This document shows, piece after piece, positions 23,764 through 56,511 of a DNA stretch of 64,000 bases; within the stretch, counting starts at the first letter, position 1, and every line of letters starts with the position of its first letter. The stretch is taken from contig OY282354.1 of the NCBI GenBank assembly GCA_958295485.1, forward strand, positions 3,434,042 to 3,498,041. The letters run 5' to 3'. The stretch comes from an uncultured Gammaproteobacteria bacterium (GTDB taxonomy: Bacteria; Pseudomonadota; Gammaproteobacteria; Eutrophobiales; Eutrophobiaceae). The notes beneath the pieces are model-generated. The model had not been told where the DNA came from. It saw nothing but the letters and a program-made list of their open reading frames with translations, and did no database searches. The position numbers and the translations under genes were made by a program.

Positions 23764-23849
23764 TATATATACTCCTGGTCAAGTCGACTCGGATGACCTG
23801 ACTCTAATAGATTAGCATCTTAATTCAGGTGTTGTGTAAAATGCAAACA

Positions 23850-24312
23850 GTGAACGGTAACAGACCAGACGGGATCAACCGATGGACATAGAGACGCCGA
23901 TAAAATGCCTGGGCCCGGTGGACGTCGAGACATTACGTCATACAGTCCTCTCCCAGGAACGCGAAGTGAACGGTAACAAACCAGACGGGATCAACCGATG
24001 GACATAGAGACGCCGATAAAATGCCTGGGCCCGGTGGACGTCGAAGCATTACGTCATACAGTCCTCTCCCAGGAACGCGAAGTGAACGGTAACAGACCAG
24101 ACGGGATCAACCGATGGACATAGAGACGCCGATAAAATGCCTGGGCCCGGTGGACGTCGAAGCATTACGTCATACAGTCCTCTCCCGGGAACGCGAAGTG
24201 AACGGTAACAGACCAGACGGGATCAACCGATGGACATAGAGATGCCGATAAAATGCCTGGGCCTGGTGGACGTCGAAGCATTACGTCATACAGTCCTCTC
24301 CCAGGAACGCGA
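23850..24312 (+). repeat. Four tandem 116-bp copies of a gene's 5' end
   Basis: Units begin at 23850, 23966, 24082 and 24198. Each holds GTGAACGGTAACA, a start region ATGGACATAGAG and the first 80 or so bases of the hydroxylase gene up to GGAACGCGA. Only the fourth copy runs on into the gene. In the first three, the frame that starts at ATG reads 41 codons and stops at TAG just after the next ATG, because 116 is not a multiple of three. Copies differ by only a few substitutions, so the expansion is recent. Confidence 0.92.
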
Positions 24313-32308: not shown

Positions 32309-32440
32309 CTATATTATTTACAGTTCGAGCTTGTCCGGATTACGCTTATTCTCCATTATACTACTCCTTTTTTAATTACACCTAACAGGCTTGACCCCAA
32401 ATATTACAACCATATTCACTTTCTGCAACCAGATGCTTCC

Positions 32441-32750
32441 CTGACCGGCAATCAGACGCTCCCCTAACCGGCAATCAGACGCTCCCCTGACCGGCAATCA
32501 GACGCTCCCCTGACCGGCAATCAGACGCTCCCCCAACCGGCAATCAGACGCTCCCCCAACCGGCAATCAGACGCTCCCCCAACCGGCAATCAGACGCTCC
32601 CCCAACCGGCAATCAGACGCTCCCCTAACCGGCAATCAGACGCTCCCCCAACCGGCAATCAGACGCTCCCCCAACCGGCAATCAGACGCTCCCCTAACCG
32701 GCAAATGGTCGCTTCCCTAACCGGCAATTAGACGGTATAATAACCGGCAA
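32441..32750. repeat. 23-bp tandem repeat array
   Basis: About thirteen head-to-tail units of CTAACCGGCAATCAGACGCT-CCC, starting at 32441, with the second to fourth bases varying (CTG, CTA, CCA). The last three units are diverged (GGCAAATGGTCGC forms). There are no unique spacers, so this is not CRISPR. The final partial unit supplies the start codon of the next gene. The rest of the gap (32309-32440) shows nothing recognisable. Confidence 0.93.
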
Positions 32751-38849: not shown

Positions 38850-40466
38850 GTGAAGAAATATGACGTTATCGTGATCGGCGCCGGTCATAACGGCCTGACC
38901 AATGCCGCCTACCTGGCCAAGGCCGGGTTGAGCGCGCTCGTCGTGGAAAAGAATCCCTGGACAGGGGGCGCATCCGTCAGCCGTTCCCTGTACGAGGGCT
39001 GGACCTATTCGAATTGCTCCTACGTGTGCAGCCTGTTTCGCCCGGAAATCTACCGCGACCTGGAACTTGCGCGGCACGGTTTGCAGGTTATTCCATACGA
39101 AGGCGGCATTACCTTTATGCGGAACGGCGATTATTTTGGCAGTTATTCCGATACGGAACGCCACTATCGCGAAATTGCCAGACACTCCAAACGCGACGCC
39201 GATGCCTATGTCCGTTATGAGGCAGACGTCTCCCGCCAGACCCGGTTAATTCGACCGCTGCTGCTGAGAACCCCGCCGGACCCCGTCTCGTTCAAACCCC
39301 GGGACGTAATGGAGCTGATCTACCTAATAAGAACCTATTGGGACCTGGGCGAGGATATCCTGTATGACACCATCCGTTTCTGGACTATGAGCGTGGGTGA
39401 CTTCCTCGATGAATATTTTGAATCGGACATCGTCAAGGCGCACCTGGCGGGCAGCGGCATCATCGGCACGGCGCTCGGTGTCTATTCTCCGGGAACGGCT
39501 TATGTCCTGCTGCATCACTACATGGGCGACGTGGACGGCAGCGTCGGTTCATGGGGATTTGCCCGGGGCGGCATGGGGTCTATTGCCAAAGCCCTGGCGG
39601 CGGCATTTCAATCATTTGGCGGCGAGATCAAGGTCGATGCGGGCGTAGATAAAATTCTGGTCGCCAATGGTCGGGTCAAGGGCGTCGCGCTGGAAAACGG
39701 CGATGAACATTATGCCAATATCGTCGTTTCCAACCTCGACCCGAAACGTACCTTCCTGAACATCATGGATGAGAAGGACCTGCCCGGAGACGTCGTCAGG
39801 AAGGCAAGGAATTTCAAGATCCGTGGTTCTTCAGGGAAGTTGAACATCGCGCTGGATGGCATGCCGGCCTTTTATGGCATGGCCGAAGGGCATGAACTGT
39901 TAAAAGCGGATTTTCATTTCACTGACTCGCTGGAGCGCATGGAAAGGGCTTACGACGACTGGAAGAACGGTACCTGGTCAAAGGACCCTTACCTGGATAC
40001 TTTGATCCCTACCCAGGTAGACCCTACGATGGCGCCACCGGGCAAACACATGATGAGCGTATTCGTTCAGTACTGCCCGCCGCAAGTAAACGGCCGGGAC
40101 TGGACTGATGAAAAACGGGATGAATTCGGCCAAACCATCATCGATCAGATCTCGGAATACAGCCCGAACTTCAAGGACTTGATATTGCACGCCGAAATCC
40201 GCACCCCACGGGAACTGGAAAACGAGGTAGGCCTGACCGAGGGAAATATCTTCCAGGGGGAACTGACCGCAGACCAGTTGTTGTTCAACCGCCCCTTCCC
40301 CGGCTATGCCCAGTATCGGGGACCCGTCAAGGGAATGTATATGTCCGGTTCCGGGACGCATCCGGGCGGTGGCGTGATGGGCGCCCCGGGCGCCAATTCC
40401 GCCAGGGAAATCCTGCTGGACCTGGGCCGAAAGAATATCGTCCCGGCAGCCCTCAACGATGAGTAA
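38850..40466 (+). CDS. PYROXD2-like NAD(P)/FAD-dependent oxidoreductase 1
   Basis: 538 residues, starting with GTG. FAD motif YDVIVIGAGHNGLTNAAYLA, then VVEKNPWTGGASVSR, and the C-terminal MSGSGTHPGGGVMGAPG, all typical of the phytoene-desaturase-like PYROXD2 group. It shares the whole pattern with the next gene, so the pair arose by duplication. The stop overlaps the next start by eight bases. It probably oxidises a C-N or C-C bond in the operon's pathway. Confidence 0.85.
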   Translation: MKKYDVIVIGAGHNGLTNAAYLAKAGLSALVVEKNPWTGGASVSRSLYEGWTYSNCSYVCSLFRPEIYRDLELARHGLQVIPYEGGITFMRNGDYFGSYSDTERHYREIARHSKRDADAYVRYEADVSRQTRLIRPLLLRTPPDPVSFKPRDVMELIYLIRTYWDLGEDILYDTIRFWTMSVGDFLDEYFESDIVKAHLAGSGIIGTALGVYSPGTAYVLLHHYMGDVDGSVGSWGFARGGMGSIAKALAAAFQSFGGEIKVDAGVDKILVANGRVKGVALENGDEHYANIVVSNLDPKRTFLNIMDEKDLPGDVVRKARNFKIRGSSGKLNIALDGMPAFYGMAEGHELLKADFHFTDSLERMERAYDDWKNGTWSKDPYLDTLIPTQVDPTMAPPGKHMMSVFVQYCPPQVNGRDWTDEKRDEFGQTIIDQISEYSPNFKDLILHAEIRTPRELENEVGLTEGNIFQGELTADQLLFNRPFPGYAQYRGPVKGMYMSGSGTHPGGGVMGAPGANSAREILLDLGRKNIVPAALNDE

Positions 40467-42027
40467 GCGATACGATGTCATTATTGTCGGGGCCGGCCAC
40501 AATGGTCTGGTTTGCGCGACTTACCTGGCCCTGGCCGGCTACTCGGTCCTGGTGGTTGAAGCAAACGAACGGGTCGGCGGCGCGGCGATCACCCGTGAAT
40601 TCGCCCCTGGTTATTCGGTCTCTGCTTGCGCCCATTTGCTTTTCCTGTTGCACCCGAAGATCGTTGCTGATTTGTCGTTGGAGCGGCACGGCCTGAAACC
40701 GGCGGCAACCGATTTGCACACCGTTGCCTTGGCGGCGGACGGCGCTCATCTCACCCTGACCGCAGACGCCATTGACGGCAATGGGGTATCCACTGGCGAC
40801 CGCGCCGCCTACCCCCTGTTCCTGAATAAACTCCGGCGTTTTGCCGGCGTTTTGCAAAAGACGTTTATGACCCGTCCGCCCCGGTTGGCGCATAAGAGCA
40901 TGGCGGACCTGACGGCCCTGGCAAAGCTGGGTTTGAGCCTGCGCCTGTTGGGGCGGGACGATATGCGGGAATTGTTGCGAATAGGCGCAATCAACATCCA
41001 CGACGTGTTGCAGGAAACCTTTGAAAACGACCTGCTGAAAGGCGCGATGGGTTTCGATGCGGTATCAGGCGGCAACCTGGGGCCGCGCTCCCCCAACACG
41101 GTCTTGACCTGCCTGTATCGACTGACGGGCCAGCTAAACAGCAAGGGCAGCGGCATCTCCATACCGGCGGGGGGCATGGGCGCGGTTACCGGCTCATTGC
41201 GGGCGGGGGCGGAGGCGGCGGGCGTGGAAATCGTGACTGGTACGCCGGTTAAACGAATATTGCTGGACAGGGACCGGGCCACCGGCGTTGAGACCAGCGA
41301 CGGTGAGCGAATAAGCGGCGCGATAGTCGTTTCCAATGCCGACCCCAAGACCACGTTTATGAAATTGGTCGGCGCAAGAAATATCGAAACCGGTTTTGCC
41401 CGGCGCATCGACAATATTCGGATGCAGGGCAAGGCGGCGAAGCTGCACCTGGCCCTGGATGGCCCACCGACGTTCAGGGGGTTAGAACAGACCCAGCTGG
41501 GTCAACGGCTGGTTATCGCGCCGTCATTGAACTACGTCGAGCGAGCCTTCGACTGCTCCAAGTATGGCGAGTATTCAAACCAACCCACCATGGAGATCAA
41601 CATACCATCCGTTCATGACGACAGCCTGGCGCCAAAGGGAAAGCACGTCCTGTCCGCCATCATCCAGTATGCCCCATACAATTTACGCGCCGGTTGGGAC
41701 GCCGAACGCGCCGCCTTCAAGCAATTGATTATCGATAAGCTGGCGGAATATGCCCCCGGCATCGAAGAGCGGATTATCGCCTCGGAGTTATTGACACCGC
41801 CCGACATTGAAAAAGAGTTCAATATCCATGGCGGTCACTGGCACCACGGCGAATGCAGCCCGGATCAATTCATGATGTTGCGTCCGACCCCCGGCGCCGC
41901 CCAGTATGCTACTCCGGTTGCCGGTTTGTACCTGTGCGGCGCGGGTTCCCATCCGGGGGGCGGCGTACTGGGGCTGGCCGGCCGCAATGCTTCGACCGAG
42001 ATATTGAAACGGGAGAAAACCCCATGA
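40459..42027 (+). CDS. PYROXD2-like NAD(P)/FAD-dependent oxidoreductase 2
   Basis: 522 residues. FAD motif YDVIIVGAGHNGLVCATYLA and C-terminal LCGAGSHPGGGVLGLAG. It is a clear paralogue of the preceding gene but differs in the middle. The two may form a heteromer or act on successive intermediates. ATGA overlap with the next gene shows coupled translation. Confidence 0.85.
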   Translation: MSKRYDVIIVGAGHNGLVCATYLALAGYSVLVVEANERVGGAAITREFAPGYSVSACAHLLFLLHPKIVADLSLERHGLKPAATDLHTVALAADGAHLTLTADAIDGNGVSTGDRAAYPLFLNKLRRFAGVLQKTFMTRPPRLAHKSMADLTALAKLGLSLRLLGRDDMRELLRIGAINIHDVLQETFENDLLKGAMGFDAVSGGNLGPRSPNTVLTCLYRLTGQLNSKGSGISIPAGGMGAVTGSLRAGAEAAGVEIVTGTPVKRILLDRDRATGVETSDGERISGAIVVSNADPKTTFMKLVGARNIETGFARRIDNIRMQGKAAKLHLALDGPPTFRGLEQTQLGQRLVIAPSLNYVERAFDCSKYGEYSNQPTMEINIPSVHDDSLAPKGKHVLSAIIQYAPYNLRAGWDAERAAFKQLIIDKLAEYAPGIEERIIASELLTPPDIEKEFNIHGGHWHHGECSPDQFMMLRPTPGAAQYATPVAGLYLCGAGSHPGGGVLGLAGRNASTEILKREKTP

Positions 42028-43235
42028 CCGCGCCCATGACTGAGCCCATGATTGCGCGCGCGGCGGACAAGCGCGTATTGCCCACGCCGTTCCACGCGCG
42101 CGCCTCAGCCCTGTGCCAAACCAACTGCTGGTCATCCTGGAATGCCTATACCGTCGTTGATCTTTACTCCACGCTTGAAGATGAGTATTTCGCCATTCGC
42201 AACGCTACCGCGGCATTCGACCTGACGCCTATGGCCAAATACCGGATCAGCGGCAAGGACGGCCTCGCCTACCTGGATAAATTGATGACGCGCAAGATGG
42301 GCAAGCTGACACCGGGACGCGTCATGTACGCGGCCTGGTGCAATGACCGGGGACACGTACTGGATGACGGGACAGTTTTTCATCTGGATAAAAATCACTG
42401 GCGTTTATGTTCACAGGAACGTCACCTGGACTGGCTGCTGGCAACGGCAATGGGGTTCGACGTCGAGATCCACGATGAATCCGCCGAGGTAGCCGGATTG
42501 GCCGTACAAGGACCAACCTCCTGTCGGACCTTGAAAGCCATGAATCTTGAAGGTATTGAAAACCTGAAACCATTTCAGTTGCGGTATTTCCCATTCGATG
42601 ACACTGAATTATTGGTGTCGCGGACCGGCTTTACCGGCGATTTGGGTTATGAGTTGTGGATTGAACCCGCCCATGCGGAAAAATTATGGGATGCCCTCTT
42701 CATTGCCGGAAAACCCCATGGCATCCTGCCGAACGGCGGCCAGGCCCTGGATATGGCCCGCATCGAAGCAGGTTTCATTCAAGCGGGCGTGGAATTTGTG
42801 CCGGCTGCCGAGCTGGTGCGCCCGGACCGGGGACGGTCGCCGTTTGAATTGGGGCTGGGTTGGCTGGTGCATTTTGACAAGCCGATATTCAACGGGAGAA
42901 GGGCCTTGCTGGAAGAGCGGGAAAAAGGTTCGCGCTATCGTTTCGTTCGCCTGGACATTGACGGGAACAAACCGGGGAATGAGGCTTTCATCTACAACGG
43001 CAAAAAAGAAATCGTGGGACACATTACTTCCGCCACCTGGTCGCCCAGCGCCAAGATGAATATCGCCCTGGCTTCACTAAAGATGCCCTGGGGGCGGCCC
43101 GGGGATGAGCTGTACGCGGAGATTTACTATAATCGCGAATTACAATGGAATCGATTAATGGCTCGTTGCAAGGTTGTGAACGATGCTTTTTTTGCGCCGC
43201 CACGCCGCCGGGAAACACCGCCGCGGGACTATTGA
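42024..43235 (+). CDS. GcvT-like aminomethyltransferase family protein
   Basis: 403 residues from the ATG at 42024 that overlaps the previous stop; an upstream frame in that gene is a shadow. The GcvT pattern is visible: AAFDLTPMAKYRISG, a folate-side Tyr/Asp region, VLVSRTGFTGDLGYELW-like TGFTGDLGYELW, and GQALDMARIEAGF. Members transfer a one-carbon unit to tetrahydrofolate. With oxygenase and oxidoreductase genes alongside, it likely captures methylene or methyl groups from a demethylated amine. It could also be a demethylase acting on dimethylated compounds. Confidence 0.87.
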   Translation: MTAPMTEPMIARAADKRVLPTPFHARASALCQTNCWSSWNAYTVVDLYSTLEDEYFAIRNATAAFDLTPMAKYRISGKDGLAYLDKLMTRKMGKLTPGRVMYAAWCNDRGHVLDDGTVFHLDKNHWRLCSQERHLDWLLATAMGFDVEIHDESAEVAGLAVQGPTSCRTLKAMNLEGIENLKPFQLRYFPFDDTELLVSRTGFTGDLGYELWIEPAHAEKLWDALFIAGKPHGILPNGGQALDMARIEAGFIQAGVEFVPAAELVRPDRGRSPFELGLGWLVHFDKPIFNGRRALLEEREKGSRYRFVRLDIDGNKPGNEAFIYNGKKEIVGHITSATWSPSAKMNIALASLKMPWGRPGDELYAEIYYNRELQWNRLMARCKVVNDAFFAPPRRRETPPRDY

Positions 43236-43246
43236 GCGCGCCGCCT

Positions 43247-44638
43247 GTGAATATACCGAAACGAGGCAGTATCGAAGAACTGCGGGTCTTTTTAAAAAAA
43301 CACCCGGGGATAAAAATGATCGAACTCCTGCTGCCTGACGTGAACGGCATATTGCGAGGCAAGCGTATCAACGATAAGGAGCTGGAAACGTTATATAAGG
43401 AGGGGCTCAAGATATGCGCCGCAACCCTGTTTGGAGACAGCCTCGGGGAAGTTGTATTTGAAACGGGCATCGGCACCAGGGATGGCAGCCCGGATATCAT
43501 GAGTTACCCGGTGGCGAACAGCCTGGTACCGGTTCCATGGCTTGATTCGCCCATTGCGCAAGTGTTCGTTTCCTTGCATGATTTCGACGGCGCCCCCGAT
43601 TTTTCAGACCCCCGCTACGTGTTGCGACGCACCTGTGAAAAACTTGCCGATATGGGCTTGCGGGCTGTCGTCGCGACAGAGTTTGAGTTCTATTTACTGG
43701 AGCCGGGCGATGATATTGCCCCGAAACCAAAGCTGGGGAATATCCCCGGCACGGGCCTGAAGCAGGAAGGGTTGCAGTATGGCGCCCTGGAAGACCTGTG
43801 GGAATGCGACCCGCTGCTCATGGACATCCAGCGAAATTGCGAGTCACAAAATGTTCCCTCGAACGCGGCCTTGTCGGAATTCTCCCCAGGCCAATTTGAG
43901 ATCAACCTGCGCCATGTCAATGATCCCGTCATCGCCTGTGACCACGGCGCGATGCTTAAACGCATTATAAAAGGAACGGCCTTCAAACATGGGCTGGGCG
44001 CGGCCTTTATGGCGAAACCGTTCACCGACTACTCGGGCAGCGGTTTACACGTCCACGTCAGCCTGCTTGATGAAGCAGGCAATAACGTCTTTGCCGACCC
44101 GGCGATAAAGACGCGGCCGGCGGTTTCCCGCACCCTGCGACACGCCGTCGGCGGACTGCAACAGACCATGGCCGACGCCATGGCCATTTTTGCTCCCAAT
44201 GCCAATTCCTATCGACGCTTGCAGCCGCGCTCTTTCGTGCCGTTATCCCCTGATTGGGGTTATAATCACCGCGCCGTCGCCTTGCGGGTGCCGGTTGGCG
44301 ATGACAAGGATATGCGCATCGAACATCGGGTTGCCGGCGCGGACGCCAATCCGTACCTGGTGGTGGCCGCCTTGCTTGCGGGTATTCATTACGGCATCAG
44401 CAATCAATGCGAACCTACGGAGATGATCGCAGAACGAACCATGCTGGATGAACAGGAAGCAACGTTGCCCGTGCGCTGGGAAGCGGCCCTGGACCGGTTT
44501 AAGAACAGCGCCATACTGCCCGAATACCTGGGCGAAGAATTTTGCCGCGTGTTCGAGATCATGCGGCGTAGTGAGTGCGACCGGTTCCATGGGCAGGTCA
44601 GCGACCTGGATTACGCATGGTACCTGCGGGCGGTGTAG
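43247..44638 (+). CDS. Glutamine-synthetase-like gamma-glutamyl ligase
   Basis: 463 residues from the GTG at 43247; a TTG at 43232 that overlaps the GcvT stop, or an ATG at 43145, are alternatives. Glutamine-synthetase motifs: LPDVNGILRGKRI, ATEFEFYLLEPG, SGSGLHVHVS, ANSYRRLQP and IEHRVAGADANPYL. It lies in an amine operon, so it probably glutamylates a small amine, like gamma-glutamylmethylamide or PuuA-type enzymes, and not ammonia. It is diverged from the puuA-like gene at 20 kb. Confidence 0.84.
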   Translation: MNIPKRGSIEELRVFLKKHPGIKMIELLLPDVNGILRGKRINDKELETLYKEGLKICAATLFGDSLGEVVFETGIGTRDGSPDIMSYPVANSLVPVPWLDSPIAQVFVSLHDFDGAPDFSDPRYVLRRTCEKLADMGLRAVVATEFEFYLLEPGDDIAPKPKLGNIPGTGLKQEGLQYGALEDLWECDPLLMDIQRNCESQNVPSNAALSEFSPGQFEINLRHVNDPVIACDHGAMLKRIIKGTAFKHGLGAAFMAKPFTDYSGSGLHVHVSLLDEAGNNVFADPAIKTRPAVSRTLRHAVGGLQQTMADAMAIFAPNANSYRRLQPRSFVPLSPDWGYNHRAVALRVPVGDDKDMRIEHRVAGADANPYLVVAALLAGIHYGISNQCEPTEMIAERTMLDEQEATLPVRWEAALDRFKNSAILPEYLGEEFCRVFEIMRRSECDRFHGQVSDLDYAWYLRAV

Positions 44639-44650
44639 ACAGAGGCGCGG

Positions 44651-45859
44651 ATGAAGATGGAAAAGCTGGCAAAACTCATTAAAAACCAACCCGCGGGATT
44701 TTCCTTGCAGCAGGGTTTCTATAAGGACACCGATATTTATCAGCGGGAACTCGAGCGTATCTTCATGCAATCCTGGCTCTATGCCGGGCACGTCAGTCAA
44801 ATTCCCAATATCGGTGATTACTTTCTTTATGAGCTGGCCGATGAATCCGTGATCATCATCCGGGTTGATAATGATACGATAAAGGCCCTGTCCAACGTGT
44901 GCCGGCATCGCGGTTCCCGGATATGCATGGAGTCCCGTGGCCAACAAAAGCTGCTGGCGTGTCCTTATCACGGCTGGACTTATCAATTGGATGGAACGCT
45001 GCGCGGCGCCGGTCACGTGCATCCCGACTTCGATAAGGCTGACTACGCGCTCAAACAGGTCCGGCTGACGGTTTTTCACGGCATGATTTTCATCAATTTT
45101 ACCGGGCCGGCCGCATCATTCGACCCCATCCGGCAGGACCTGGACGAGTGTCTGCGCCCTTACGGCCTGGAGAGAGCGAAGGTCGCGCGCAAACAGGATT
45201 ACCTGATCAAGGCGAACTGGAAGTTAGCGGTAGAAAATTATTGCGAATGTTATCACTGTATCCCCGCTCACCCCGAATATTCCGAAGGCCACGGCCGCTC
45301 GGTACCGGATGAGACAGTATCCGAATTACTGGAACAGGTAACGGCGAAGGGGGAAAAAGCGGGGCTGCCGGAACATTGCGTCGACAAGAGCTGGCTGGAT
45401 GCCGGGGGCATCGGCATTGATCGCGGCTTCGACAGGTACCCCTTGCTGAAAGGGTTTGTCACGGGCAGCCGGGACGGTAAACCGGTTGCGCCCTTGCTGG
45501 GCGATATCAAGGGCTATGACGGCGGGGCAACCGACATCCAGATCGGCCCGCTGACATTTTACCTGGCTTATTGCGATCATATCGTCGTCTATCATTTCAA
45601 GCCATTGACCGCTGCTGCCAGCGTCTGCGATGTCACCTGGCTGGTGAATGAGACTGCGGAAGAGGGGAAGGATTACCAGGTGGCCGAGTTGACCTGGCTC
45701 TGGGATGTCACCACTATCGCGGATAAACGAATCATTGAAAACAACCAGAAAGGGGTGAATTCAAAATTCTATCAACCGGGGCCTTATACGATGATGGAAG
45801 ATTTCACTCGCGGTTTCATTGATTGGTACCTGGATACCATGAGCAAATCATCAGGATGA
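44651..45859 (+). CDS. Rieske non-haem iron oxygenase, alpha subunit
   Basis: 402 residues. Rieske cluster ligands Cys84-x-His86 and Cys104-x2-His107 are present. The mononuclear iron ligands are His202 and His207 (ECYHCIPAHPEY) with Asp358, and Glu199 fits the bridging acidic residue of quaternary-amine oxygenases such as carnitine monooxygenase (CntA). The pattern places it with choline, betaine and carnitine oxygenases. A reductase partner is not next to it. The last bases overlap a duplicated start codon (ATGA). Confidence 0.9.
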   Translation: MKMEKLAKLIKNQPAGFSLQQGFYKDTDIYQRELERIFMQSWLYAGHVSQIPNIGDYFLYELADESVIIIRVDNDTIKALSNVCRHRGSRICMESRGQQKLLACPYHGWTYQLDGTLRGAGHVHPDFDKADYALKQVRLTVFHGMIFINFTGPAASFDPIRQDLDECLRPYGLERAKVARKQDYLIKANWKLAVENYCECYHCIPAHPEYSEGHGRSVPDETVSELLEQVTAKGEKAGLPEHCVDKSWLDAGGIGIDRGFDRYPLLKGFVTGSRDGKPVAPLLGDIKGYDGGATDIQIGPLTFYLAYCDHIVVYHFKPLTAAASVCDVTWLVNETAEEGKDYQVAELTWLWDVTTIADKRIIENNQKGVNSKFYQPGPYTMMEDFTRGFIDWYLDTMSKSSG

Positions 45860-46230
45860 TAACAGGTGGTTGTCTCTGCGGCGCGGTACGCTATGTATCC
45901 CGACTGGCGTCCCGTGACGCCGGTTATTGCCATTGCCGGATTTGCCGGCGCGGTTTCATTGACTGGTACCTGGATGCCATGAGTAAATCATCAGGATGAT
46001 AACAGGTGGTTGTCTCTGCGGCGCGGTACGCTATGTATCCCGACTGGCGCCCCGTGACGCCGGTTATTGCCATTGCCGGATTTGCCGGCGCGGTTTCATT
46101 GACTGGTACCTGGATGCCATGAGTAAATCATCAGGATGATAACAGGTGGTTGTCTCTGCGGCGCGGTACGTTATGTATCCCGACTGGCGCCCCGTGACGC
46201 CGGTTATTGCCATTGCCGGATTTGCCGGCG
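45811..46230 (+). repeat. Three tandem 140-bp copies spanning the Rieske/GFA junction
   Basis: Units start at 45811, 45951 and 46091. Each holds the last 49 bases of the Rieske gene and the first 95 or so bases of the GFA gene, joined by the ATGA overlap. The original gene boundary was copied twice. In the first two units, the GFA start opens a 47-codon frame that joins the GFA N-terminus to the Rieske C-terminus (CRICRR then GFIDWYLD) and stops at the next ATGA. Confidence 0.93.
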
Positions 46231-46543
46231 CGTATCGGGAGCGCCGGTTTCCGTCTGGGCTTCCTTTCCCGTGGAAGCATTTTGTTATACGCAAGGCGCG
46301 CCTGATATATTTAAATCATCCGGGCACGGGCAACGCGAATTTTGCGGCGCCTGCGGCAGTCAATTAGCATTTCGGGATACGACGAATGGGGAATCAGTGG
46401 ATGTCAATATCGGAACTCTGGATAAACCCGGCCAGATAAAACCCGAGTCTCATATCTGGACTGAAAGCCAATTGGAATGGTTTGAAATCACGGACGGATT
46501 ACCCCGGCACAAGCAGGATATCCCGACTTCTGACGAGGTTTGA
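46136..46543 (+). CDS. GFA-family (CENP-V/GFA) zinc protein
   Basis: 135 residues. Zinc-binding cysteines are in the family pattern: Cys6, Cys8, Cys25, Cys27, Cys30 then Cys70 and Cys73 (CLCG, CHCRIC, CGAC). The family was named for glutathione-dependent formaldehyde activation, though that activity is debated. Formaldehyde from oxidative demethylation by the Rieske enzyme would give it a clear role here. The start used is the third copy in the repeat. Confidence 0.88.
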   Translation: MITGGCLCGAVRYVSRLAPRDAGYCHCRICRRVSGAPVSVWASFPVEAFCYTQGAPDIFKSSGHGQREFCGACGSQLAFRDTTNGESVDVNIGTLDKPGQIKPESHIWTESQLEWFEITDGLPRHKQDIPTSDEV

Positions 46544-46578: not shown

Positions 46579-46956
46579 CCCCTCCCGTCGTGCCTGCGAA
46601 AGCAGAAATCCCCGGAGTTACGACCAGGCTCATCGTCGCAAGCGCCCGCCAGCCAAAGCGTGCCCAGCACATCCATTGGTGGGTTAAAACTGTTCACTAC
46701 CGTGCTTTCACAGGAAGAATGACGACCTCGCAGGTGCGGTGATCAGGGGGTGCGATAGACAAGTCAACCCCTCCCGTCGTGCCTGCGAAAGCAGAAATCC
46801 CTGGAGTTACGACCAAGCTCATCGTCGCAAGCGCCAGCCAGCCAAAGCGCGCCCAGCGCATCCATTGGTGGGTTAAAACTGTTCACTACCGTGCTTTCAC
46901 AGGAAGAATGACGACCTCGCAGGTGCGGTGATCAGGGGGTGCGATAGACAAGTCAA
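46579..46956. repeat. Two tandem 189-bp copies downstream of the operon
   Basis: Units begin at 46579 and 46768 and match closely. Each contains the ends of an imperfect inverted repeat, CGTCGTGCCTGCGAAAGCA and TGCTTTCACAGGAAGAATGA, of the type common between genes. The last bases overlap the 3' end of the acyl-CoA synthetase gene. No gene is supported in the gap 46544-46952. Confidence 0.85.
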
Positions 46957-48575
46957 CCCCACTCTTTTTCGCGTAATTCTATGCGGCGTATCTTGCCACT
47001 AACCGTCTTGGGCAGGGCATCGACGAAATCGATTTTGCGCGGATACTTGTAAGGCGCGGTGGTGCGCTTTACGTGCGCCTGGAGTTCCTTTTTCAACGCC
47101 TCGCCCGCCTCAACGCCCGGGGCCAGAACCACGAAGGCCTTGACCACCTCGCCGCGAATTGCATCGGGGCTGGCGACGACGGCCGACTCGGCGACGGCGG
47201 GATGCTCAATCAGGGCGCTTTCTACCTCGAAGGGGCCGATACGGTAACCGGCTGATAAAATCACGTCATCGGCGCGGCCGACAAACCAGAAATAGCCATC
47301 GTCATCCACGCAGGCGCGATCACCGGTAACGTACCAGTCGCCCCGCCGGGTGGCGGCCGTCCTGGCCGGGTCGCCGCGGTACTCCCGGAAGAAGCCCTGG
47401 GGTGGTTGCGGCGTCATGCGCAGGGCGATATCCCCTTCCGTGTTCGGTTCGACAAGGTTGCCATCATCATCGATCACGCGCAGGTCAATGCCCGGCGACG
47501 GTTTCCCCATGGAACCGGCTTTGGGCTCGATACAGGGAAAATTCGCACACAGAATCACCGACTCGGTCTGGCCGTAACCGTCCCGGATGGTGATGCCCGT
47601 CGCCTCCTTCCAGGTCTTGATGGTTTCGGGATTAAGGGGTTCGCCGGCGGCCACACAGTGCCGCAGCAGCTTGAAATCATGCCGGCCCAGGTCCTCCAGC
47701 GCCAACATCCGGTAGATGGTCGGCGCCCCGCAAAAAGTGGTGATCGGGTATTTCTCCAGGAAGTTCAAGGTCTGTTTCGGGTTGAAGCCGGCGGTGTGAT
47801 GAACAAACAACGCCGCGCCGCACAACCAGGGGCCGAAATAACTGCTGTAGGCGGCCTTGCCCCAGCCGGTATCACTGATGTTCCAGTGCAAGTCGTCCGG
47901 TTTCAGGTCCAACCAGAACTCACCGGTGATCTTGTGGCCAATGGCATAACTGTGGGTGTGGATGCACATCTTCGGATAACCCGTCGTGCCGGACGTGAAG
48001 TAACAGATGGCTTCATCGCCGGCCTTCGTATCCACGGTGGCGAACTCAGCCGGCTCAGCGGCCACGGCCTGCTGGTAGTCAATCCAGCCGTCCCGTTGGC
48101 CATCCGTCACGAGGCGGGCGATCAGGGTAGGACAATTTTCCATTACCGCATCCACTTTTGCCGCATTCGCGTTGTCGGTGATGACACAGGTCGCGGCCGC
48201 GGCATTGATCCGGTACTCCAGGTCTTTCCCGGAGAGTTGGACGGTGCCCGGCGATATTACGGCGCCCATCCGCAACGCCGCAGTAAACGTCTCCCACCAG
48301 GCCATCACCCTGGGCAACATCACGATGACCGTATCACCAGGCCGGATGCCCGCCCGGGTCAACAGGTTACATAACCTGCTCGACGTCCGACTGAGCTCCG
48401 CAAAGGTCTTCCTGACCTCGTTGCCCTCATCATCGACCCAGAACATGGCGGGTTTTGTCGGGTCCTGTTGCGCCCATTTATCGATGACGTCACGGGCAAA
48501 ATTATATCTTTCCGGGCGTTCCCATTGAAAAGATGAATAAGTCTCCCGGTAATCTTTCATATTATATTCCGGCAT
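46953..48575 (-). CDS. AMP-binding acyl-CoA synthetase (medium-chain type)
   Basis: 540 residues from the ATG at 48573-48575; a longer frame begins in the repeat array and is unlikely. ANL-family motifs: YFTSGTTGYPKMC (P-loop), DGYGQTE, the hinge YFWFVGRADDVI and the C-terminal KTVSGKIRR lysine. It makes acyl-CoA from a carboxylic acid and ATP. The N-terminus (YNMKDYRETYSSFQWERPE) resembles medium-chain and aromatic-acid ligases. Its acid may come from the amine pathways. Confidence 0.88.
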   Translation of the reverse strand: MPEYNMKDYRETYSSFQWERPERYNFARDVIDKWAQQDPTKPAMFWVDDEGNEVRKTFAELSRTSSRLCNLLTRAGIRPGDTVIVMLPRVMAWWETFTAALRMGAVISPGTVQLSGKDLEYRINAAAATCVITDNANAAKVDAVMENCPTLIARLVTDGQRDGWIDYQQAVAAEPAEFATVDTKAGDEAICYFTSGTTGYPKMCIHTHSYAIGHKITGEFWLDLKPDDLHWNISDTGWGKAAYSSYFGPWLCGAALFVHHTAGFNPKQTLNFLEKYPITTFCGAPTIYRMLALEDLGRHDFKLLRHCVAAGEPLNPETIKTWKEATGITIRDGYGQTESVILCANFPCIEPKAGSMGKPSPGIDLRVIDDDGNLVEPNTEGDIALRMTPQPPQGFFREYRGDPARTAATRRGDWYVTGDRACVDDDGYFWFVGRADDVILSAGYRIGPFEVESALIEHPAVAESAVVASPDAIRGEVVKAFVVLAPGVEAGEALKKELQAHVKRTTAPYKYPRKIDFVDALPKTVSGKIRRIELREKEWG

Positions 48576-48648
48576 GGGGTTCCTCGTCGTTAATGGCAAG
48601 CTCTCTGTTTTCAACAGGTTAACGAAAATCCGCAACTTTGCAACCCCC

Positions 48649-49335
48649 CCACAGGGGCAACCCCCCGCGCCTGCCCAAATGGATTCAGCGCCACCATCCC
48701 CCACAGGGGCAAACCCCCGCGCCTGCCCAAATGGATTCAGCGCCACCACCCCTCACAGGGGCAGGCCGCCGCGCCTGCCCAAATGAATTCAGCGCCACCA
48801 CCTCTCACAGGGGCAGCCGCCGCGCCTGCCCAAATGGATTCAGCGCCTCCATCCCCCACAGGGGGAAACCCCCGCGCCTGCCCAAATGAATTCAGCGCCG
48901 CCACCCCTCACAGGGGCAGCCGCAGAGCCTGCCCAAATGAATTCAGCGCCGCCACCCCTCACAGGGGCAAACCCCCGCGCCTGCCCAAATGAATTCAGCG
49001 CCACCATCCCCTCACAGGGGCAATCGCCGCGCCTGCTCAAATGGATTCAGCGCCTCCATCCCCCACAGGGGCAGGCCGCCGCGCCTGCCCAAATGAATTC
49101 AGCGCCACCACCTCTCACAGGGGCAGCCGCCGCGCCTGCCCAAATGGATTCAGCGCCTCCATCCCCCACAGGGGGAAACCCCCGCGCCTGCCCAAATGAA
49201 TTCAGCGCCGCCACCCCTCACAGGGGCAAACCCCCGCGCCTGCCCAAATGAATTCAGCGCCTCCATCCCCTCACAGGGGCAGTCGCCGCACCTGCCCAAA
49301 TGGATTCAGCAGCGCCACCCGTTACAGGGCAACCA
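48649..49335. repeat. Array of about thirteen 52-54-bp tandem repeats
   Basis: The unit is ACAGGGGCAAACCCCCGCGC followed by CTGCCCAAATGRATTCAGCG and CCACCACCCCTC-like bases. Copies begin at 48649, 48703, 48755 and so on, with one- or two-base length changes. The G-run and C-run can pair within each unit. Long open frames across the array (MNSAPP... LTGA... PAQ) follow from the lack of stops and are not genes. It separates two acyl-CoA synthetase genes. Confidence 0.9.
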
Positions 49336-49434
49336 CAGAGCCTGTCCCTGCATGTCGTAAGCAGGGGGGCGTCCTATGGATGCAAGGATGGTTTTCTATC
49401 GGATTCCGGCTTGCGCGGGAAGGGTGTCCTATTT

Positions 49435-56078: not shown

Positions 56079-56490
56079 GACATAGATGTAACGCCCCCAC
56101 CCTGACCATTCCCCTCAAGGGGAGAGAGATTGTTTGAAATCCCGCGCCGGAACCTGCGGCTGGGCATCAGCCAATTCCTGGTCGAAATGACAATGTTTTC
56201 CATGATCTTATCCTTTTAGACATAGATGTAACGCCCCCACCCTGACACTCCCCCTTCAAGGGGAGAGATGGTTTGAAATCCCGCGCCGGAACCTGCGGCT
56301 GGGCATCAGCCAATTCCCGGTCGAAATGACAATGTTTTCCATGGTCTTATCCTTTTAGACATAGATGTAACGCCTCCTCCCTGACACCCCCTTCGAGGGG
56401 AGAGAGATTGCTTGAAATCCCGCGCCGGAACCTGCGGCGGCGCATCAGCCAATTCCTGATCGACATGACGATGTTTTTCATGGTCTTACC
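56079..56490. repeat. Three tandem 139-140-bp units
   Basis: Units start at 56079, 56219 and 56358. Each contains GACATAGATGTAACGCC, a CTTCAAGGGGAGAG-type short hairpin and CCGCGCCGGAACCTGCGG. They fill the gap between the pseudopilin and the 867-residue gene. No gene is supported within. Confidence 0.88.
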
Positions 56491-56511
56491 TTCAAGCAAG
56501 TTGGGAGCGGT

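Follow-up and report, generated by a model that had tools for sequence, protein, structure and literature searches.

Termination-reinitiation at ATGA junctions, in which the stop codon of one gene overlaps the start codon of the next, is an established mechanism (PMC6728339, PMC10666635). The locus analysed in this study resembles the gene pairs of those reports in its four-base stop/start overlap and in having no well-spaced ribosome-binding site, and the arrangement suggests that translation of its two genes is likely to be coupled. It differs from them in showing three successive ATGA junctions, with two short chimeric frames lying between the real genes. The locus also shares several features with the minisatellites, or VNTRs, that arise in bacteria from slipped mispairing: head-to-tail copies of about 100 bp that are 98% alike, microhomology at the edges, an edge copy that is the most diverged, and a placement that respects reading frames. 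Unlike such minisatellites, however, the array sits exactly over an overlapping stop and start and yields chimeric relay frames. A third parallel is found in Escherichia coli, where a stabilising effect of ExoI, ExoX and RecJ on tandem repeats is reported (PMC3942315, citing Feschenko 2003). The genome studied here is similar to the exonuclease-deficient E. coli of Feschenko, Rajman and Lovett 2003 in lacking RecJ and exonuclease I by sequence search and in carrying more tandem arrays than expected, with units of a similar size. Unlike the E. coli case, it is a natural genome in which exonuclease loss is a candidate cause only, and G137, another genome lacking recJ, has no arrays. The 2003 E. 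coli study reportedly dealt with how existing repeats, about 100 bp long, are rearranged.

In the window, by which we mean the whole stretch of 64,000 nucleotides that was analysed, TRF detects a tandem array at 45809-46232 with a period of 140, 3.0 copies, 98% matches and a score of 813. In the register 45811-46230 the array consists of exactly 3 x 140 bp, all on the plus strand, with five variable sites among copy 1 (45811-45950), copy 2 (45951-46090) and copy 3 (46091-46230). Each unit contains the final 15 codons of the Rieske oxygenase gene, the ATGA stop/start overlap and codons 1-32 of a GFA-family gene. Copy 1, in which the functional end of the Rieske gene and the first of the extra GFA starts lie, carries four private substitutions that separate it from copies 2 and 3 (45823, 45836, 45844 and 45910), while copy 3, which holds the functional GFA start, has a single private and synonymous substitution at 46171. 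Identity among the copies reaches 2 bases past either edge of this register, giving a full array length of 424 (3 x 140 + 4), and the plus strand reads CGCG at both the left edge (45809-45812) and the right edge (46229-46232), a microhomology of only 4 bp that could be chance. An array of 3 x 140 bp at 98% identity cannot itself have arisen by chance; its near-identical head-to-tail copies and edge microhomology mark it as a minisatellite or tandem duplication. A search of its own genome found the array sequence at this one place only. These results bear out the first-pass annotation in its claim that a 140-bp unit including the Rieske stop and the GFA start is present three times, in both coordinates and copy number (TRF, alignment).

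Both genes flanking the array are intact. The upstream gene (44651-45859, plus strand) encodes a GbcA-like alpha subunit of a Rieske non-haem iron oxygenase of 402 aa, with matches to Pfam PF00355 and PF00848 and its tail within copy 1. Its best NCBIfam match is NF058607, the glycine betaine monooxygenase GbcA, at 334 bits against a cut-off of 670; judged by sequence, the protein is a Rieske oxygenase of the GbcA superfamily, and this score falls short of the GbcA equivalog and gives no support to the identity of GbcA itself. The downstream gene (46136-46543, plus strand) encodes a GFA-family protein of 135 aa with seven cysteines, which scores 97.1 bits against PF04828 (gathering threshold 24.3) over profile positions 1-114 of 115 and therefore belongs to the family. 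An apparent operon at 40459-46543 comprises an FAD oxidoreductase, a GcvT-like aminomethyltransferase, a glutamine synthetase-like enzyme, the Rieske oxygenase and GFA, and looks like one for methylated-amine catabolism; its first gene pair likewise overlaps as ATGA. A duplicated 189-bp unit (46579-46960) lies directly 3' of GFA, before a convergent acyl-CoA synthetase-like frame.

A TGA and an ATG on the same strand overlap as ATGA at three positions, with the ATG at 45856, 45996 and 46136. From the first two of these starts run plus-strand frames of 47 aa (45856-45999 and 45996-46139), in which GFA residues 1-32 are joined to the Rieske tail and which differ from each other by one residue (S/P at 45910). 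With a unit of 140 bp (2 modulo 3) and an ATGA overlap between the genes, reading passes from the GFA frame of one copy to the Rieske frame of the copy after it and stops at the next overlap. The earlier description of extra 47-codon frames ending exactly at the next start holds for both frames, as does its count of five of the seven GFA zinc cysteines in each chimera: C6, C8, C25, C27 and C30 of the translation lie inside the duplicated part, and the remaining two, in FCGAC, lie outside it. Given such an array, however, the stop-on-next-start geometry is about a one-in-three outcome of any junction duplication, since it requires nothing beyond a unit length of 2 modulo 3. Before the GFA ATG we find only an AGG abutting the start, without a well-spaced Shine-Dalgarno sequence, and GFA translation is therefore likely to be coupled to that of the upstream frame. 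RNA structure in the unit is not above that of shuffled sequence (z -0.37; junctions 0 to -0.66) and was rejected as an explanation on this z value.

We consider it highly probable that the array is a neutral tandem duplication at microhomology over a gene junction, in a genome prone to such duplications, with coupling to GFA preserved and perhaps slightly weakened. Slipped mispairing at the 4 bp of CGCG was probably the origin of the first duplication, and the unit would have been copied once more in a second event. The first copy retains the genuine end of the Rieske gene, and the last copy the genuine GFA start. The array could survive because a duplication over the junction breaks neither gene. 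Given this unit length (2 modulo 3) and the ATGA overlap, a ribosome re-initiating at the first GFA start would terminate on the next one, and coupling would be maintained across two additional steps. Synthesis of the 47-aa chimeras would be incidental to this, and the products would probably fail to fold and be degraded. Each step probably costs output, and if GFA expression is coupling-dependent it would be expected to be somewhat lower.

The order of events is suggested by the residues that the copies encode. The Rieske tail residue of copies 2 and 3 (A) is found in three of the four nearest relatives (L004, L005 and L006; S in L003), a more distant Rieske tail (L045) has T at the same residue, and the GFA residue of copies 2 and 3 (P) is found in the alignable relatives L033 and L036. 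The residues encoded by copies 2 and 3 therefore tentatively look ancestral, which suggests, as the simplest history, that the inner unit was duplicated again after an older duplication, with a polarity that is itself tentative. In L036 (1401-1794), the GFA homologue appears frameshifted near codon 33, and a second GFA paralogue lies just upstream.

Similar arrays are common in this genome. In a sample of 864 kb, made up of 40 stretches of 20 kb and the window, 42 arrays have periods of 60 bp or longer with 88% or more matches, and many of them lie at gene edges. At least seven straddle a junction between co-directional neighbours, covering the stop of the first gene and the start of the second. 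In stretch L147 an array of period 119 duplicates an ATGA junction and yields a chimera of 40 aa whose stop falls on the next start, which is the same relay; in L131 an array of period 128 over the junction of two other genes gives two 41-aa chimeras, and the products of these genes resemble, by eye, respiratory complex I subunits. An array at 23849-24312 of the window carries three extra starts of another gene. The periods of arrays within frames of at least 150 codons are nearly all multiples of three, whereas those at gene edges mostly are not. When arrays were collapsed in silico and a frame was counted as broken if the collapse lengthened the longest frame by at least 30 codons, 3 of the 42 arrays broke a frame, compared with 327 of 840 random placements (39%), a difference whose binomial estimate is a few in a million and to which in-frame protein repeats contribute. 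This frame-sparing placement is the kind of trace that purifying selection on real duplications leaves, and it fits duplications that persist because they are harmless.

Array density is about 4.9 per 100 kb (window and L122-L161), compared with about 0.1 in the comparison genomes that carry recJ, and the window is the densest stretch, with 8 arrays in 64 kb. Other arrays in the window include one of three 139-bp copies at 56079-56492, whose collapse extends the longest frame that overlaps it from 102 to 297 codons and which may have broken a gene; one of 13.5 copies of a 23-bp unit with 93% matches (32425-32734); and one of about 13 copies of a 52-bp unit where an acyl-CoA synthetase-like frame starts (48645-49344), with higher-order periods of 155 and 207. 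Long arrays of 12-28 copies of 339-348 bp units, 79-84% alike, are seen at L126:9766-19883, L141:1087-11757 and L136:1-4119, and these are probably giant repeat proteins.

Such arrays are rare in relatives. One comparable array was found in 800 kb sampled from six family members, and none in 400 kb from eight single-contig genomes of the class. Comparison genomes carrying recJ have 1 array in 1.2 Mb; this amounts to about 40-fold fewer arrays than in the present genome, a figure to be read with the fact that several relatives are more fragmented assemblies and may under-report arrays. The gene junction itself also differs among relatives. No GFA match was found in the inspected flanks of Rieske orthologues (50-69% identity) at 12 loci, and a conserved Rieske-GFA pair is therefore rejected; the Rieske gene and the closest GFA homologue lie on separate contigs in both G007 and G025. 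Because the orthologous Rieske loci have no adjacent GFA, the junction seems, on sequence comparison, specific to this lineage.

These observations bear on the possibility that the two extra ATGA links are a translational attenuator or relay selected to set the ratio of GFA to Rieske protein. The unit of 2 modulo 3 would keep reinitiation at each step, GFA with only an AGG abutting its ATG is probably coupling-dependent, and L147 shows an identical arrangement. Among the plus-strand junction arrays examined, the unit is 2 modulo 3 in five of six, a count that could hint at selection for coupling at a sample size too small for significance, and one in which 0 modulo 3 units are partly hidden by the classification of arrays, since such units lengthen frames. 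Nevertheless, similar arrays occur at unrelated genes, orthologues do not have even the Rieske-GFA adjacency, and the array is indistinguishable from its genomic background, which makes a selected attenuator clearly unlikely. The first-pass annotation had proposed that the operon keeps coupling through two extra links; its geometry and the ATGA relay stand, but a purposeful role for the links is not supported, given the similar gene-edge arrays genome-wide, the second array with the same relay in L147, the lack of codon-level purifying selection on extra copies and the lack of conserved Rieske-GFA adjacency in orthologues.

An assembly artefact appears very improbable. The array is known here from assembled sequence, and hardly any such arrays are present in relatives, which would favour an error; however, its five inter-copy differences form a stepwise pattern, and across the sample frames are broken in far fewer cases than the 39% expected at random. 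No assembler would spare frames, and assembly error is therefore hard to invoke.

Comparison of the extra N-terminal copies with their functional counterparts in seven arrays gives 24 non-synonymous and 11 synonymous differences, close to the roughly 26% synonymous share expected under neutrality, so no codon-level purifying selection on the extra copies is seen when the seven arrays are pooled; the five variable sites of the 45811-46230 array are too few to exclude selection on that array itself. Functional mini-proteins, for example zinc-binding peptides, are scarcely credible, because the 47-aa chimeras, despite their five cysteines and partial PF04828 matches, cover only profile positions 1-32 of 115 and not the whole domain, miss two cysteines, and have counterparts in seven comparable arrays that show no purifying selection. 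With no such selection and unremarkable RNA, the chimeras are most likely by-products, and the earlier claim that the junction makes chimeric mini-proteins finds no support among arrays scattered at gene edges.

A candidate for what makes this genome generally prone to duplication is the loss of RecJ in the absence of exonuclease I. A recJ match (TIGR00644) is found in 51 of 53 family genomes and not in this one; the other family genome without a match is 77% complete. In the conserved order hom-thrC-recJ-prfB-lysS, hom, thrC, prfB and lysS are present here without recJ, and a 351-codon frame with no Pfam match occupies its place (G000:C1:1925365-1931875; L216:10365-16875). A recJ protein of the genus used as query also had no match in this genome, a search without a positive control of its own beside which stand the TIGR00644 matches in relatives. 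By profile search, the exonuclease I C-terminal family is absent across the genus. Exonuclease VII is present and intact. A search for SbcC gave no match above cut-off in seven of seven genomes, with only 1 of 14 controls above cut-off. Loss of mismatch repair through mutS is rejected, because mutS is intact. G137, a complete genome from a different family that lacks recJ, shows no arrays over 200 kb, which weakens recJ loss as the sole cause and means that it is not sufficient alone; other recJ-lacking samples (7-100 kb) are mostly without arrays, and one has 2 in 20 kb. It is plausible that recJ loss, in a genus without exonuclease I, is a contributing cause of array abundance, a link that comes from one genome. 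We further speculate, as a rather unlikely extension, that recJ loss without exonuclease I has turned this organism into a natural mutator in which units of ~60-250 bp are prone to tandem duplication, and that duplications over overlapping gene junctions persist as relays of chimeric mini-frames tuning downstream translation.

In its neutral reading, the array exemplifies why tandem duplications gather at gene junctions, where neither gene is harmed, and it would offer a simple route to chimeric small frames and extra coupling steps without selection. An array-rich genome with a clean loss of recJ from a conserved locus means that the laboratory result on exonucleases and repeat stability becomes testable in nature.
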